Below are positions 492 to 40,892 of a DNA stretch of 40,892 nucleotides, one piece after another. The first letter of the stretch is position 1. Every line of letters begins with the position of its first letter. The position numbers and the translations under genes were made by a program. The stretch spans positions 1-40,892 of IMG/VR virus record IMGVR_UViG_3300046499_000314; one strand, written 5' to 3'. Source of the DNA: a virus. Under the pieces are notes generated by a model, which worked only from the letters and a program-made list of their open reading frames with translations, was not told the DNA's origin and did not search any database.

Positions 492-1172
492 TTACCGATG
501 AACGCTGGTCATCTCCGCAGTCTTATCGGCCTTCGTCATGTCGGCCCGCAGGAGTTCAAGGTTGCCATCGACTGAGCCATAGGCGTTCATCATTTGGTTC
601 AGCACACGGGCAATGTCTTGCGCGCTCGCGCGGCCGAGCTGCAGGTCCGTGCTGATATTGACCATTTGGGCGCCGTCGAAAAACTTGTTGCTGCTGCCGT
701 TTTCGATCGCCTGGTTGTCGCGCATGTGGGCGTAGATGCCGGCATAGCGCTCCAACAGTTCCGGCTCCATCCAGCTCGCGGCTTGGCTGGCAACCGCGAC
801 GTCCCACGCCTCGCGCCGCAGGGTGGGCGAGTGGATGCTGAGCGCCAGGAAATTCTTTTGTTCCATGAGGTGCGCAATGGCTTCTTTCTCCGGGACGCCG
901 CGCCGAAGCTCGTCCAAAAAGCCATGGAACACCTTCGCGGTTTTCGCCTGTTCAGCGCGGTTATGGGCAAGCACGGTTTCCAGTTCCTTGAGGTTCTGCC
1001 GCAGCTCGGTCTCGATCCTCGCAGTCGCCTCGTGTGCCACGTGGCGGTGATGCCAGCTCTGCACGGCGTGCTCCAGTCCCAGCGCCGTGATGATGCTCAC
1101 GACAATCATTGTGTATTCGCCCGCGAACTCGCGGAAGCTGTGCAGCTTCTTTTTCGGTACCTCGACGTGCAT
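492..1172 (-). CDS. membrane-anchored protein of unknown function (host)
   Basis: A 226-residue protein starting at the ATG at 1172; an in-frame GTG at 1181 is the alternative, but GGTGAGG sits at ribosome-binding distance from the ATG. After a basic N-terminus (VPKKKLHSFREF) there is one hydrophobic segment of about 20 residues (TMIVVSIITALGLEHAV), followed by a long, charged, mostly helical region with several His and Arg residues. This is an N-terminal single-pass anchor with a cytoplasmic or periplasmic helical domain. I do not recognise a function. It lies in host DNA upstream of the tRNA-His locus. Confidence 0.65.
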   Translation of the reverse strand: MHVEVPKKKLHSFREFAGEYTMIVVSIITALGLEHAVQSWHHRHVAHEATARIETELRQNLKELETVLAHNRAEQAKTAKVFHGFLDELRRGVPEKEAIAHLMEQKNFLALSIHSPTLRREAWDVAVASQAASWMEPELLERYAGIYAHMRDNQAIENGSSNKFFDGAQMVNISTDLQLGRASAQDIARVLNQMMNAYGSVDGNLELLRADMTKADKTAEMTSVHR

Positions 1173-1293
1173 GATCCTCACCGGGGAAATTGAACAGAGG
1201 CAATCTATCCGAACTCGGGAGTTATGGCAATCGAAGTGCAGGCGAGGGAAACAAAAGGGGCTGCCGGCGTTAAGTGTGGGACTGGAAAGCCAC

Positions 1294-1480: not shown

Positions 1481-1607
1481 TTGGGGTGGCTGATGGGACT
1501 CGAACCCACGACAACAGGAATCACAATCCTGATCCCAAACGAGCATCCATGCGGGTTCCAGCCGGTTTTTGTGTAAAACGAAGCGCCCTTTTCAAAAAGT
1601 TCCACCT
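1481..1607. repeat. left copy of 127-bp repeat (attL core plus phage left end)
   Basis: These 127 bases recur identically at 40766-40892. Bases 1481-1531 are the 3' half of tRNA-His, shared by host and phage; 1532-1607 are phage DNA. The base before the repeat differs (C here, T in the right copy). Host terminator and chromosome lie to the left and phage genes to the right, so this is a true attL. Confidence 0.9.
1482..1531 (-). tRNA. tRNA-His(GTG), 3' fragment in attL
   Basis: Read on the minus strand, the 50 bases fold as an anticodon arm with loop TTGTGAT (anticodon GTG, His), a five-base variable loop, a T arm containing TTCGAGT, the acceptor 3' strand CAGCCAC, discriminator C and encoded CCA. 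The D arm and 5' acceptor strand are absent: the sequence to the right is phage DNA. It is a partial gene, the expected product of integrase crossover in or near the anticodon loop. Confidence 0.85.
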
Positions 1608-1632: not shown

Positions 1633-1744
1633 AATTTGAGCCTGCCGAGCTCGCCTGGTCGCACTCCCTCAATCGCACTTTTGCGCACCCGCAGCACCGA
1701 TTCTTGCCGAGTCGCCATGATGGTATTCCCGAGAAAGGATACCT

Positions 1745-2098
1745 ATGCGATACATATCAGCCTTCATTGCCGCCGCGCTGCCGGCGCTGGCTATCGGCGC
1801 GCAGCCCTACCAGTACGATCTGACCGGCGACCAGTTCGTGGCCGCGCTGTCAGGTCGACCAACGTCCGAGCAGGAGTTCCGCGCGCGCGATCGAGCCTAC
1901 AGCTACGTCGACGGCGCCAAGGATGCGACAGTCGGCAAGGTCTGGTGTCCGACGCGGCCGCGCAAGACGCACGAGCTGGCGTACGACGCCGCGGACTACA
2001 TCAAGGGCCTGCACGCCGATCTGCGCAAGGGGAATGCCGCGCAGTTGCTGCTGGCCTACCTTGCCGGCCAGTACCCGTGCAAAGGAGTCCAACAATGA
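1745..2098 (+). CDS. Rap1a/Tai-family immunity protein
   Basis: This 117-residue protein has a signal peptide (MRYISAFIAAALPALAIGA) and would be periplasmic. The mature part follows the Rap1a/Tai pattern: a YVDGAKDA segment, Cys68 in KVWCP, a helical segment (LAYDAADYIKGLHADLRKG) and terminal Cys112 in GQYPC. The two cysteines could form the disulfide known in this family. Tai/Rap1a proteins bind and block peptidoglycan amidases delivered by type VI secretion. The ribosome binding site AAGGA precedes the ATG. The stop overlaps the next start as ATGA, coupling it to the amidase gene, which it probably neutralises. It sits at the extreme left end of the prophage, a usual place for cargo genes. 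Confidence 0.75.
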   Translation: MRYISAFIAAALPALAIGAQPYQYDLTGDQFVAALSGRPTSEQEFRARDRAYSYVDGAKDATVGKVWCPTRPRKTHELAYDAADYIKGLHADLRKGNAAQLLLAYLAGQYPCKGVQQ

Positions 2099-2565
2099 AG
2101 CCGACCTACAACACCATGCGGATCAACTACCCCGACAAGGCGCTATACCCGCGGGGTCTGCTGCTCGAAATGTTGGGCTGGGACGATCTGCTGAACAACC
2201 AGGCGTACGCAGACACCTGCGCCATGCGGATGAGCTACGCGCTGGCGCGTTCAGGTGTGCACCTGTTCGGCGCGCGGATGAGGGGAAAGGGGAAGTACGT
2301 CACCGGCAAGCCGATCGAGCCGGGGCAGGCTGATCTGTCGCGGATCCTGCGGCGCATGTGGGGCGAGCCGGAGAAGTACAAAGGAGAGGATGCCGCCCGC
2401 AAGGGGATCGGGCAGCGCGCCGGCGTGGTGTCGTTCTTCAGGATCCACGAGAACGTGAACCAGGGCCATATCGACCTGATCGAACCGCGCCCGAACGGGT
2501 TCTCCGAGTGCGCAATGTCCTGCTACTTCTCGTCTCAGGAGATCTGGTTCTGGCCGCTGAAATAG
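2095..2565 (+). CDS. Tae4-type peptidoglycan amidase
   Basis: The 156-residue protein resembles Tae4, the type VI secretion amidase that cuts peptide cross-links in peptidoglycan. It has the NlpC/P60-like Cys in TCAMRMSYAL (Cys42) followed by an S-G pair, and the His in GHIDL (His125) with Asp127 next to it. The pair Cys139/Cys143 near the C-terminus recalls a disulfide reported for Tae4 structures (from memory). There is no signal peptide, as expected for an injected or lysis-released enzyme. The start is set by AAAGGAG seven bases upstream of the ATG at 2095. It ends 13 bp from the oppositely oriented holin gene. It could also have been recruited for lysis, but its coupling to an immunity gene fits an effector-immunity pair better. 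Confidence 0.75.
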   Translation: MKPTYNTMRINYPDKALYPRGLLLEMLGWDDLLNNQAYADTCAMRMSYALARSGVHLFGARMRGKGKYVTGKPIEPGQADLSRILRRMWGEPEKYKGEDAARKGIGQRAGVVSFFRIHENVNQGHIDLIEPRPNGFSECAMSCYFSSQEIWFWPLK

Positions 2566-2578
2566 CCGGCCAGGTGGA

Positions 2579-3001
2579 TCAGACCGCGCCCTTGATCTTC
2601 TCGACGGTGCGCAGCGTGCCGAGCCCTAACATGCCGAGTAGCAGGGGCATCAGCTCGCCCAGCTCGGCGGGCGGCAGCGATACGGGGCTGCCGTACATGG
2701 CCATGCCGGTCTGGATGGCTGGGCGAAGGATGAAGTTCCAGCCCAGCGCGGCGCCGCAAATCCAGCCGATGGCGGGACGCCAGCCGGACTTGAACAGGCT
2801 GTCGCTGGCCGCCTCGGTGTTGTTGACCGTGATCTGCGCCTTCGCCAGGTCGGTTTGCGCGGCCAGTTCCGCGAGCTCGCCGGTCTGCATGAGCTGCGCG
2901 AGCTTGAACTGCGCTTCGGCCTGCTGGGTAGGATCGGGCCAGATTTTGCCGACGACGCTCTTGATGATGTCGGCCAGTGGGCCGAGCAGAAGAGGGTTCA
3001 T
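2579..3001 (-). CDS. holin, 3-TM type
   Basis: About 140 residues. The N-terminal half is a helical stretch rich in Ala, Gln and Glu (PTQQAEAQFKLAQLMQ); the C-terminal half has hydrophobic segments (PAIGWICGAALGWNFIL and ELMPLLLGMLGLG). This is the layout of 3-TM holins in prophage and gene-transfer-agent lysis cassettes, which make the inner-membrane hole that releases or triggers the endolysin. ATG 3001 has TAGGAG at a good distance; a second in-frame ATG two codons upstream (3007) overlaps the endolysin stop as ATGA. It is the last gene of the late operon. Confidence 0.7.
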   Translation of the reverse strand: MNPLLLGPLADIIKSVVGKIWPDPTQQAEAQFKLAQLMQTGELAELAAQTDLAKAQITVNNTEAASDSLFKSGWRPAIGWICGAALGWNFILRPAIQTGMAMYGSPVSLPPAELGELMPLLLGMLGLGTLRTVEKIKGAV

Positions 3002-3003
3002 GG

Positions 3004-3486
3004 TCATACTCCTACGAGAAGGTTATGAGCGATGCGCCGGGCCCAGCCGCGTGCGTTCTGCGGCCAGTTGGCCAGCTCGGTGAGGTACATCAGCCGCTTG
3101 GCGTTGAACCGGGCGATTACCTCGCCCACGTTCGCAGCGCGCACCGCGGCGATGGTCTTGGCCCCAATCACGCCGTCCGGAGTGGCGCCGACGCATTCCT
3201 GCAGCCAGCGCACCGGATAGCCGCCGTTGTAGGCCGCGTCAAAGACCTGGTAGGCGATGCGCGCGTCAAACTGGTCGCACTGGTACTTGTCCCAGTAACC
3301 GGCCTTGGCGATGCTTTTGGCGGTCTCCAGCGGCAGATCGCGCATGTCGCCCTTGTAGCCCCAGGCGCGCGCGACTTTCTCGGTGATGCCGTACTTGGTG
3401 GCGCCGCCCGGGTCGGCCTGCCGGTCACGATCAGCGAAGCCGCCCTCGATTGCGGCGATGGTGGCGAAGGCTTGGTCGAAGCTCAT
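3004..3486 (-). CDS. endolysin, glycoside hydrolase 108 family
   Basis: A 160-residue N-acetylmuramidase. The GH108 signature is complete: EGGF with the predicted catalytic Glu14, then DPGGATKYGIT (residues 25-35). The C-terminal part (ECVGATPDGVIGAKTIAAV) matches the peptidoglycan-binding domain that follows in this family. No signal peptide or anchor segment is evident, so export depends on a holin. GGAG lies upstream of ATG 3486, and the start overlaps the upstream holin stop (ATGA). Confidence 0.85.
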   Translation of the reverse strand: MSFDQAFATIAAIEGGFADRDRQADPGGATKYGITEKVARAWGYKGDMRDLPLETAKSIAKAGYWDKYQCDQFDARIAYQVFDAAYNGGYPVRWLQECVGATPDGVIGAKTIAAVRAANVGEVIARFNAKRLMYLTELANWPQNARGWARRIAHNLLVGV

Positions 3487-3719
3487 TTGGAGGACTCCTT
3501 GCGCTTCCAGAACTCGCGCCGGACAAGGACGACGATTTGCAGGACGGTGAACACGAGCACGGCCAGCTGCACCCACTTGTCGATGGGCATGGCCGTGAAG
3601 TGGTTCCACGTGACGACGAGGACGCCGGGGGTAGCTCTGGCGCCGCCCTTGAGTGCGCCTTCGATGGTCTCGGGCGACACGCCAAGGGAGGCCGCGGCTT
3701 TCAGGATGGATTCGCTCAT
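3483..3719 (-). CDS. small single-TM holin-like protein
   Basis: 78 residues: a soluble N-terminus (ILKAAASLGVSPETIEGAL), one membrane segment (KWVQLAVLVFTVLQIVVLV) and a basic tail (RREFWKRKESSK). This is the build of small class II/III phage holins. It is coupled to the endolysin (ATGA overlap), so the cassette holds two holin-type genes, one on each side of the lysin. One may act as holin and the other as antiholin or pinholin; the sequence does not say which. No Rz/Rz1 spanin pair was found nearby. Confidence 0.65.
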   Translation of the reverse strand: MSESILKAAASLGVSPETIEGALKGGARATPGVLVVTWNHFTAMPIDKWVQLAVLVFTVLQIVVLVRREFWKRKESSK

Positions 3720-8652: not shown

Positions 8653-10244
8653 CAGAATTCCCCTGCGTCGTTGATGAACGCGTCGAAGCCATCCATGCGC
8701 CACGAATAGGCTTCGTCGGTCTCGAAGCGGAAGTGCAGGTATCGGCCGGTGACGATCGCATCGCATTTCTGCGTCTGGCCAATCGTGTAGGTGGTCGTGA
8801 TCCAGACAGGTTCGTCGTCCGCCTTCTCGGTGGCCGCGACCTTGACCAGCACGGTGCCGCCGGCGTTGCCGGATATGCGCGGTCGCACGCCCATCAGGGT
8901 CTTAAGGCGTTCCGGCGCGTCGAAGTGCACGGCGCGGCGCTCGAGGTAGGCGAACGGCAGTGCACCATCCAACGATGCCGAGGCGTCCAACAAGTACAGC
9001 TTGGCGTCGGCGCTGCCCATCATCACGCGCGCCGCGTCGGGGGTGTAGTCAGGACCGTTCCACGACGAGTTGTCAGTGCTCCACGGGTCGCTGTCCTGAT
9101 TCCAGTTACCGCCCAGGGAGTTGTCCAGCGGGCCGCAGGCGGCGTGCAGGATATCCGGCAGGTCGCGGTAGGTCACCGTCTTGTCGACATAGTTGTAGAC
9201 CAGCGCGCTATCGCAATAGGTCGAACCGATACTCGGGTAGGCGACGTAGATTTCGTTCAGGAAGGGATTCTTGAACACGAACACCTTCTGCTTGTTCTCG
9301 ACGTCGATGTTATGGAAGAAGTGCCGGCGGCCCTTCTTGTCCAGTACCGAACTGGCGGCGTAGCCGTCGTGGATCACGATGTCGATGCCGGTCACCGCGA
9401 AGTGCATTTCAGCGAAACCGGCCACTTCGAAGGAGATGGCGCAATTCATATTGAGCAAGCCGCTCATGCCGGAGACCTTGCGCAGCTTAAGGATGAATGC
9501 CCCGCCGATGTAGTCGATGGCGTAGGTGCCCAACTTCTTGTAGACGATGAACGAATCTTTCAGCCCCAGCCCGTCGACAATCGCATCTTGCCCCTCCGCG
9601 ACATCGAAGCGCCCCGCGTCTTGTGTTGCGTCAGCCTTATCCCAGGTGGTTGGAAGCGCACCCGGGTCTGCGAGGCCGGACCACATGAGCAGTACCGGCT
9701 TATTGACACCGCCCTCGGTGATGTTCAGCGCGATCATGAGGCTCTTGTACTGGCGCAGCACCTTGCACGAGGTATTGGCTGGCCACGCGGGCAGGTCGGC
9801 AAACTTGTGCGCCAAGTTCTGATCCCAGCACATCGGGGGCTTGCCGTCGCCTGCGTTCAGGATTGGCACGCCTCCGAACACAAAGCCCGACCATGCGTTC
9901 TCGGTTCCGCTGCGCGGCGTCGCTGGCGTAATGTCCGTGTGCACCGACGTTCCGGTGACACTCGACACCGCAAACACCTTCGTCGCGGTCGAGTACAGCC
10001 AGTACCCATCCGGCCCGACATTCGCCTGCATCAGGTATTGCGGCGCGGCGCTCGGGCTGTTGAACACTTGGCCGTAGCCAAGCGCCTGCATCGCGGCGCC
10101 GTCGAGGAAGCGGATATTGCTGCCATCGCTCCAGACGGCCGGCACGGCGCCGCCGACCATCGAGGGCTGCGGTAGCTCGCTCGGCTCGATATCCTTGATG
10201 ATCCCGAAGGCACCGGCAGGGGTGAAGGATACTTTGGTGGTCAT
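8652..10244 (-). CDS. tail protein, nozzle / DNA-stabilisation-like
   Basis: 530 residues, nearly all predicted beta strand, with repeated short aromatic/Gly motifs (VWSDGSNIRFLDG, AWSGFVFGGVPILNAGDG, WNQDSDPWSTDNSSWNG). Size, composition and position downstream of the head-tail adaptor fit the beta-propeller type tail proteins of podoviruses (P22 gp10 or T7 nozzle equivalents), which close the portal after packaging. This is by context; no motif proves it. Confidence 0.5.
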   Translation of the reverse strand: MTTKVSFTPAGAFGIIKDIEPSELPQPSMVGGAVPAVWSDGSNIRFLDGAAMQALGYGQVFNSPSAAPQYLMQANVGPDGYWLYSTATKVFAVSSVTGTSVHTDITPATPRSGTENAWSGFVFGGVPILNAGDGKPPMCWDQNLAHKFADLPAWPANTSCKVLRQYKSLMIALNITEGGVNKPVLLMWSGLADPGALPTTWDKADATQDAGRFDVAEGQDAIVDGLGLKDSFIVYKKLGTYAIDYIGGAFILKLRKVSGMSGLLNMNCAISFEVAGFAEMHFAVTGIDIVIHDGYAASSVLDKKGRRHFFHNIDVENKQKVFVFKNPFLNEIYVAYPSIGSTYCDSALVYNYVDKTVTYRDLPDILHAACGPLDNSLGGNWNQDSDPWSTDNSSWNGPDYTPDAARVMMGSADAKLYLLDASASLDGALPFAYLERRAVHFDAPERLKTLMGVRPRISGNAGGTVLVKVAATEKADDEPVWITTTYTIGQTQKCDAIVTGRYLHFRFETDEAYSWRMDGFDAFINDAGEF

Positions 10245-39605: not shown

Positions 39606-40643
39606 ATGCCGCGACCACGAAGCAAGGCCACCGCCGCACTGCCGAAGTACATGGACGTGCGCCACGGGAAACGCACCACAACCTATTACGCGCTGCTCAA
39701 GGGTGCGCGCATCAACCTCGGGCACGATCGCGCGGCGGCGGAGCGCAGGCTGCGCGAGCTGATCGACGGCAAGCCGACAGCCGGCACCATTGCCGACATG
39801 TGCGCCCAGTTCATCGCCCACCACCGGGCTCTGATCGCCGCCGGCACGGGCGAGCTGGCCGAGATCACACTGGATGACTACGAGAACAGCCTGAACAAGC
39901 ACGTGCTGCCGCGGTGCGGAAGCTGGAAGCCGTCCCAGTTCAAGCCGACGCACAAGGCGCAGTACCTGAAAAAGCAGAAGGAGCTGGCGCGCGCGGTGCG
40001 CGGCAACCGCGAAATGGCAGCGCTGGGCAGCGCCTTCAACTTCGGCGTCAGCATGGGCATGATCGACAAGAACCCGTGCCACGGCGTGAAGCGCAACAAG
40101 GAGAAGCCGCGCACCCGCCGCGTGGAGACGTGGGAGGTCAACCGGCTGTCCCAGGTGGCCAAGGCCAAGGGCGAGTCGGCCTACATGATCATGCTGATCG
40201 GGATGATGGTCGCGATCACCGGCCGGCGCCGCGCCGAGGTGCGCGAGCTGCCCGACCTGGCGCTGCGCGAAGAGGGCATACGTGTGAAGGCGGCCAAGCA
40301 GCAGATGGATGATCCTGACCAGTGGTTCCTGATCGCCTGGTCGCCGCTGCTGCGCCAGTTGGTGACCGAGGCCCTGGCGATGAAGCGCAATGGGCGCGGC
40401 TATGTGTTCGCGACCGAGGAAGGCCGCCCGTACACCGACAGTGGGTTCAAGACGATGTGGGGCCGAACGATGGACGACTACGTAGCCCAGGGAGGCGTGC
40501 GGTTCACGGCGCACGACCTGCGCGCGTATTACGTCACGGAAATGTCGGAGAAGGGCGAGGATCCGAAGACCCACCGCAACCGTGCGACAACGGAGCGCGT
40601 GTACAACCGGAACCGTGTGCACAAGGTCAAGCCGCTCGCCTGA
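39606..40643 (+). CDS. int: tyrosine integrase
   Basis: 345 residues. Catalytic residues can be placed: Arg208 in ITGRRRAEVREL, Lys231 in VKAAKQQM, His303-x-x-Arg306 in AHDLRAYYV, His323 and the nucleophile Tyr333 in TTERVYNR. The N-terminal ~55 residues are basic and would bind arm-type sites; the core-binding domain follows (~60-160). It recombines attP with the 3' half of tRNA-His and lies beside its att site, with arm repeats starting 37 bases after its stop. Confidence 0.9.
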   Translation: MPRPRSKATAALPKYMDVRHGKRTTTYYALLKGARINLGHDRAAAERRLRELIDGKPTAGTIADMCAQFIAHHRALIAAGTGELAEITLDDYENSLNKHVLPRCGSWKPSQFKPTHKAQYLKKQKELARAVRGNREMAALGSAFNFGVSMGMIDKNPCHGVKRNKEKPRTRRVETWEVNRLSQVAKAKGESAYMIMLIGMMVAITGRRRAEVRELPDLALREEGIRVKAAKQQMDDPDQWFLIAWSPLLRQLVTEALAMKRNGRGYVFATEEGRPYTDSGFKTMWGRTMDDYVAQGGVRFTAHDLRAYYVTEMSEKGEDPKTHRNRATTERVYNRNRVHKVKPLA

Positions 40644-40765: not shown

Positions 40766-40892
40766 TTGGGGTGGCTGATGGGACTCGAACCCACGACAAC
40801 AGGAATCACAATCCTGATCCCAAACGAGCATCCATGCGGGTTCCAGCCGGTTTTTGTGTAAAACGAAGCGCCCTTTTCAAAAAGTTCCACCT
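40766..40892. repeat. right copy of 127-bp repeat (attP-type junction)
   Basis: Identical to 1481-1607. To the left is the phage right end; within the repeat, after the tRNA 3' half, comes the phage left end (as at 1532-1607), not the host 5' half of tRNA-His. It is therefore the junction of a circular or tandem phage. The window stops at the last base of the repeat. Confidence 0.85.
40767..40816 (-). tRNA. tRNA-His(GTG), 3' fragment in the phage junction
   Basis: Same 50 bases as 1482-1531 (anticodon arm through CCA). The 5' half is missing here too, so no complete tRNA-His exists in the window. Confidence 0.85.

Follow-up and report, generated by a model that had tools for sequence, protein, structure and literature searches.

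A phage-borne Tae4 amidase and Rap1a/Tai4-type immunity gene pair beside an attachment site, probable type VI secretion cargo of the lysogen

The window, by which we mean the whole 40,892-nucleotide stretch analyzed here, is the IMG/VR virus record IMGVR_UViG_3300046499_000314, and near its left end it carries two overlapping plus-strand genes. The first (1745–2098) codes for a 117-residue Rap1a/Tai4-type immunity protein, and the second (2095–2565) for a 156-residue Tae4 amidase effector with no evident signal peptide; both reading frames lie at 1745–2565 as the original prediction had placed them, sharing an ATGA at 2095–2098. The families it had named are borne out by profile searches, with the immunity protein matching Rap1a (PF18602; E = 1.5e-9, 38.7 bits, Pfam cut-off 27.7) and the effector matching Tae4 (PF14113; E = 3.1e-16, 60 bits, Pfam cut-off 27) over the full length of the profile (positions 1–125 of 125). 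By sequence, the nearest solved structures to the effector are Agrobacterium Tae4 (6ijf; E = 1.3e-26) and Serratia Ssp1, and phmmer places the immunity protein nearest to Rap1a. The predicted folds also match crystal structures. The AlphaFold model of the effector (pLDDT 94.3) has the papain-like Tae4 fold (Foldseek against 6ijf, E = 3.8e-17, TM 0.90), and that of the immunity protein (pLDDT 85.1) is all-helical and matches 6ije (E = 7.5e-5), 4bi8 (E = 8.4e-5), and also 3zfi; beyond Tae4 and Tai4/Rap1a structures, Foldseek gave no other good match for either model. The N-terminus of the immunity protein is hydrophobic and forms a helix at residues 4–18 of the model, and a signal peptide is likely at approximately residues 1–20.

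The effector had also been credited with a catalytic pattern of Cys42, His125, and Asp127, of which the first two residues stand and the third does not. Cys42 (2218–2220) and His125 (2467–2469) align with their counterparts in 6ijf and Ssp1 and match the Cys44/His126 dyad of Salmonella Tae4, whereas Asp127 is the D of a GHID motif. The third residue shown to be important in the Salmonella enzyme is Asp137, which lies between two cysteines (PMC3695027). In the window the corresponding cysteine pair is Cys139/Cys143 and, by the register of this CxxxC pair, the equivalent of Asp137 is Met141. This position is Ser in both Serratia Ssp1 and Agrobacterium Tae4; because these two also lack the aspartate, the window Tae4 belongs with their branch, and the residue is not family-defining. 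In a 32-row alignment of homologues, Cys42, His125, and Cys139 are invariant and Cys143 is nearly so, and the sole cysteines of the immunity protein, Cys68 and Cys112, form an invariant pair. Some divergent phage-encoded Tae4 proteins depart from this picture: GHID reads GHIA at loci L083 and L085, and at L086–L088 the CxxxC pair lacks its second member. The activity of these proteins may differ from that of the rest.

The window represents a temperate phage with a Burkholderiales host, and it also encodes portal, terminase, tail fiber, and repressor proteins, together with a tyrosine integrase at 39606–40643 on the plus strand (PHROG integrase, E = 8.7e-35; PF00589). An exact 127-bp repeat is present at 1481–1607 and 40766–40892, the record ending in the second copy; 127 is also a common k-mer length in assembly. 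Within the repeat, the attachment core occupies 1481–1531 (minus strand; the attL copy) and recurs exactly at 40766–40816 (minus strand), where it is followed by the phage sequence of 1532–1607 again, as in a closed attP. ARAGORN makes short or partial tRNA-His calls at 1482–1550 and 40767–40835. Host tRNA-His genes match the window only from about 1475 or 1482 to 1531, and a complete tRNA-His (L060) diverges from the window upstream of the core; the core is therefore the 3′ part of tRNA-His, positions 1–1480 are host chromosome on the 3′ side of that gene, and beyond the second core the record runs back into the left end of the phage and not into host sequence. We rejected the reading of 40767–40835 as attR of a normal prophage, as the bases past the core are phage sequence and not the 5′ half of tRNA-His. 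The flank at 1–1480 is unrepeated at the other end of the window and contains a host gene (492–1181, minus strand) whose product is 38% identical to a protein of Pseudoduganella rivuli; its relatives are Oxalobacteraceae-like, with identities of 54% or less, and a DNA search with the flank hit mostly the tRNA, together with short segments of the gene. We infer that the record joins attL to a 39,285-bp phage genome closed on itself, either circular or in tandem, which refines the earlier and correct description of a prophage. Integrated and circular (or tandem) forms of the phage seem to be present together in the sample.

Around the circle, integrase and core are followed by the immunity gene, which lies some 0.4 kb from the integrase, then by tae4, and then on the minus strand by a lysis module. 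The latter comprises a holin-like GTA_holin_3TM gene (2579–3007; PF11351, E = 2.3e-27), an endolysin with GH108 and PG_binding_3 domains (3004–3486; PF05838, E = 3.6e-23; PF09374), and a second holin-like gene (3483–3719; PF10746, E = 4e-4, below cut-off), so the pair does adjoin holin and endolysin genes as first reported. This proximity favors two of the roles originally listed: Tae4 could be an extra lysis enzyme that enters the periplasm through the holin and helps to burst the host, the immunity protein serving as its safety lock, or it could be freed at lysis to harm neighbors. As a peptidoglycan amidase that lacks a signal peptide, Tae4 does resemble a holin-dependent endolysin, but we regard such roles as improbable. 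The two genes, situated between attP and the lysis genes, run convergently to the latter on the other strand, an arrangement that places the pair outside the lysis transcription unit; the phage encodes a GH108 endolysin of its own; the lysis genes vary between phages while the cassette stays; and in seven relatives the partner is Hcp, not holin (see below). Nor does it behave as a standard lysis gene, since tblastn with either protein found nothing among 50,697 sequenced phage records and PHROGs gave no useful match; NCBIfam gave none either. For release at lysis, moreover, there is no known route by which a free extracellular protein would pass the outer membrane.

The nearest relative of the window is IMGVR_UViG_3300009092_000008, which we take to be a complete circle because of its 123-bp terminal direct repeat. 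The pair occupies the equivalent position there, with integrase, tRNA piece, immunity gene, tae4, and minus-strand lysis genes in succession, but the integrase of this phage is different, it uses the end of a different tRNA, and its holin is different. At the DNA level, positions 1646–2582 are 79.4% identical between the two phages; only this cassette and scattered pieces are alike, and most other genes are not. The 99 bp directly 5′ of the immunity gene (1646–1744, plus strand), a probable promoter or 5′ region of the cassette, are 83.8% identical to the same place in the relative. Such conservation would be expected of a cassette that travels together with its control region, and the pair is a portable cassette. 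We note that the upstream stretch is better conserved than the cassette as a whole, and that it is overlapped by a short minus-strand open reading frame (1521–1718) whose start is similar in both phages. A scan upstream of the pair found no consensus sigma-70 promoter, and a sigma-54 reading of the conserved stretch, considered by eye, was rejected with its spacing one base off. Estimates of dN/dS are about 0.3 for tae4 and 0.2 for the immunity gene against the nearest relative, and about 0.2 and 0.3, respectively, against a third phage (L041); both genes are by this measure under purifying selection. With this selection and the invariant residues of the homologues, the sequence record puts the pair far beyond chance.

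Single-sequence scans had yielded only one close relative, and an alignment-based scan of IMG/VR found Tae4 in 13 viral records besides the window, for a total of 14. A tyrosine integrase is encoded in 12 of these, and in 10 the module lies within about 2 kb of it (the window, as a circle, and L002, L078–L081, and L084–L087). Rap1a precedes Tae4, above the Pfam cut-off, in all 12 records scanned, with L041 and L088 judged by homology only, and both genes are kept in all 14. In seven (L081 and L083–L088), a type VI secretion system (T6SS) Hcp gene (PF05638, E < 1e-37) sits directly upstream of the pair, in most of them in the order integrase, Hcp, immunity, Tae4; one Hcp-bearing record, IMGVR_UViG_3300046694_000162, has a 127-bp direct repeat at its end and is therefore taken as circular. 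The window itself has no T6SS core gene that we could find, Hcp and VgrG included, in agreement with the earlier statement that it lacks a secretion gene. The tRNA-His core is common to three phages (the window, L078, and L084), and in L085 and L086 the integrase adjoins tRNA-Arg and tRNA-Leu. From these records, the phages appear to be repeat couriers of T6SS amidase–immunity weapons, and the phage-borne Hcp suggests that a part of the delivery apparatus travels with the warhead.

Two further genes recur around these modules. A small open reading frame of about 100 codons, divergent from the immunity gene, is found at L078 (8118–8411, minus strand), L079 (4432–4743, minus strand), and L107 (11265–11570, plus strand); this conserved neighbor of the pair, present in two of the phages and in one prophage, could encode a regulator. 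A related gene of about 238 codons lies between or near the integrase and the module at L080 (1403–2122), L087 (7605–8318), and L088 (1769–2482, minus strand); its product is ImuA-like by eye, and it may be an attachment-site gene or cargo.

Tae4 is also common on chromosomes, with PF14113 present in 92 of 394 genomes from the family of P. rivuli. The nearest cellular Tae4 genes (64% identity) are solitary among housekeeping genes, and a T6SS link is therefore not universal in this branch. Elsewhere, cellular Tae4 genes follow Hcp (L061, L062, L063, L075, L077, L101, L105, L106, L108, and L109) or lie beside VgrG (L073, L095, and L096). Four genomes have what look like old integrations: in G405 the pair adjoins tRNA-His; in G409 (L092, about 9692–10170) the immunity stretch and a tae4 with an internal deletion immediately adjoin tRNA-His, which looks like a decayed integration; in G127 there are integrase pieces and a tRNA-Gly near the pair; and in G304, with tail fiber and endolysin genes, the pair is at a prophage edge. 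Genomes G387 and G003 have four to eight Tae4 matches each, some of them broken and some adjoining VgrG. In a tree built from 45 Tae4 sequences, seven label changes are needed to account for the viral entries, at least five of them forced by supported branches, and tae4 has therefore passed between phages and chromosomes on several occasions; the window groups with L002 and L041, with support of 98/83.

Another reading is that the pair came from a host only recently and at present does nothing for either phage or host; in its favor, the viral records include unverified predictions and many cellular copies are isolated or damaged. We consider this quite unlikely in view of the repeated capture at a conserved position, the low dN/dS values, and the presence of the pair in two circular phage genomes. 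An unlikely explanation, too, is that selection acts on defense only, with the periplasmic immunity protein shielding the lysogen from the Tae4 of competing kin and the effector as a passenger. Orphan immunity genes have protective roles elsewhere, Tae4 is frequent in the family as described above, and G409 keeps the immunity stretch beside its internally deleted tae4. However, across three phages Tae4 is intact with its catalytic dyad and purifying selection on it is about as strong as on the immunity gene, and not one of the 14 viral records has lost either gene.

We favor the role listed first in the original prediction, a lysogen weapon that uses the host T6SS, and consider it likely that the pair is lysogenic-conversion cargo, loaded into the T6SS of the host to kill neighbors without the immunity protein. 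The presence of Hcp in half of the viral relatives, the Hcp and VgrG neighbors of cellular copies, and a T6SS-positive host group all favor the weapon role. Of the 17 genomes in which the host-flank gene also occurs, 16 carry the T6SS sheath gene TssC; the probable host group thus appears to be almost always T6SS-positive. In published work, Tae4 made in Escherichia coli is harmless in the cytoplasm and toxic in the periplasm (PMC3695027), killing by Salmonella Tae4 needs Hcp1 (PMC6099711), and Rap proteins are periplasmic (PMC3533786). Taken with the TssC distribution, these data make export of Tae4 by the lysogen's T6SS the simplest account. We infer that the pair is expressed in the lysogen, where its likely signal peptide would take the immunity protein to the periplasm and Tae4, having none evident, would remain cytoplasmic. 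Tae4 would be picked up by the Hcp tube protein, the host's own here and phage-borne in the seven relatives, injected by the T6SS into neighboring cells, and would there cleave peptidoglycan stem peptides by means of the Cys42/His125 dyad. Carriers of the prophage would be saved by the immunity protein, and cells without it, cured or uninfected kin among them, would be attacked; the phage would benefit from raised host fitness and from prophage loss being costly among siblings. Counting against the cargo role are the absence of a T6SS gene from the window, the lack of a consensus promoter, Met141 in place of Asp137, and the solitary closest cellular relatives.

With two overlapping genes and the antidote first, the pair also resembles a classical toxin–antitoxin addiction module that would kill the same cell upon prophage loss. 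This is highly improbable, as the characterized Tae4 is harmless in the cytoplasm of its producer and toxic only in the periplasm (PMC3695027), and a similar dependence on compartment holds for Ssp2 (PMC3533786); killing of cured cells could come only from neighbors, which is what the cargo role itself predicts. The alternatives first listed beside the weapon, namely lysis enzyme, release at lysis, and addiction, are all weakened by the opposite strand, the separate endolysin, the separable cassette, and the non-toxicity of cytoplasmic Tae4.

Comparison with known systems places the pair in a familiar class with some distinct features. Ssp1/Rap1a of Serratia marcescens and Tae4/Tai4 of Agrobacterium tumefaciens (6ijf) are alike in effector family, fold, Cys/His dyad, CxxxC pair, and adjacent Rap1a immunity gene, whereas the window pair is phage-encoded and without T6SS genes nearby. 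T6SS effector and immunity genes that temperate phages carry and transmit are known from Ralstonia solanacearum, where prophages carry T6SS auxiliary clusters and phiRSY1 virion DNA contains one (PMC11481896). Those clusters, phiRSY1-like and others, were found via vgrG and mostly encode toxins that act on lipids, on nucleic acids, or on unknown targets, and the paper does not mention Tae4 (PMC11481896); the window differs in having no linked vgrG and a Tae4/Tai4 pair, Hcp-Tai4-Tae4 in relatives, at the attachment end. Aux3 of Vibrio cholerae is similarly prophage-like, with an integrase, att sites, and the peptidoglycan-degrading effector TseH with its immunity protein, but its effector rides on the T6SS tip via a PAAR adaptor and production of phage particles by Aux3 has not been shown (PMC7721734). 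Prophage T6SS effector loci of Myxococcus xanthus likewise render kin that carry the element incompatible with kin that do not, by other effectors and in another phage lineage (reviewed in PMC10047993). Prophage T6SS effectors are thus already known; we found no report in the open-access literature of Tae4/Tai4 or Hcp-Tai4-Tae4 as phage cargo, and such VgrG-less modules at an attachment site are, as far as we searched, undescribed.

A broader proposal, which we put forward tentatively as a possibility, is that temperate phages of Burkholderiales have repeatedly captured self-contained T6SS modules of immunity gene and tae4, often with a dedicated Hcp, at the attachment end. The secretion system of the lysogen would thereby become a selection device under phage control, killing cells from which the prophage is absent or has been lost, in a contact-dependent, population-level form of addiction. 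The two- or three-gene layout is simple and should be easy to test. Phage-carried T6SS pairs link two arms races, and if phages routinely move effector–immunity pairs, then a lysogen and its uninfected sibling would differ in whom they kill and by whom they are killed, and the spread of phages would feed directly into kin recognition.
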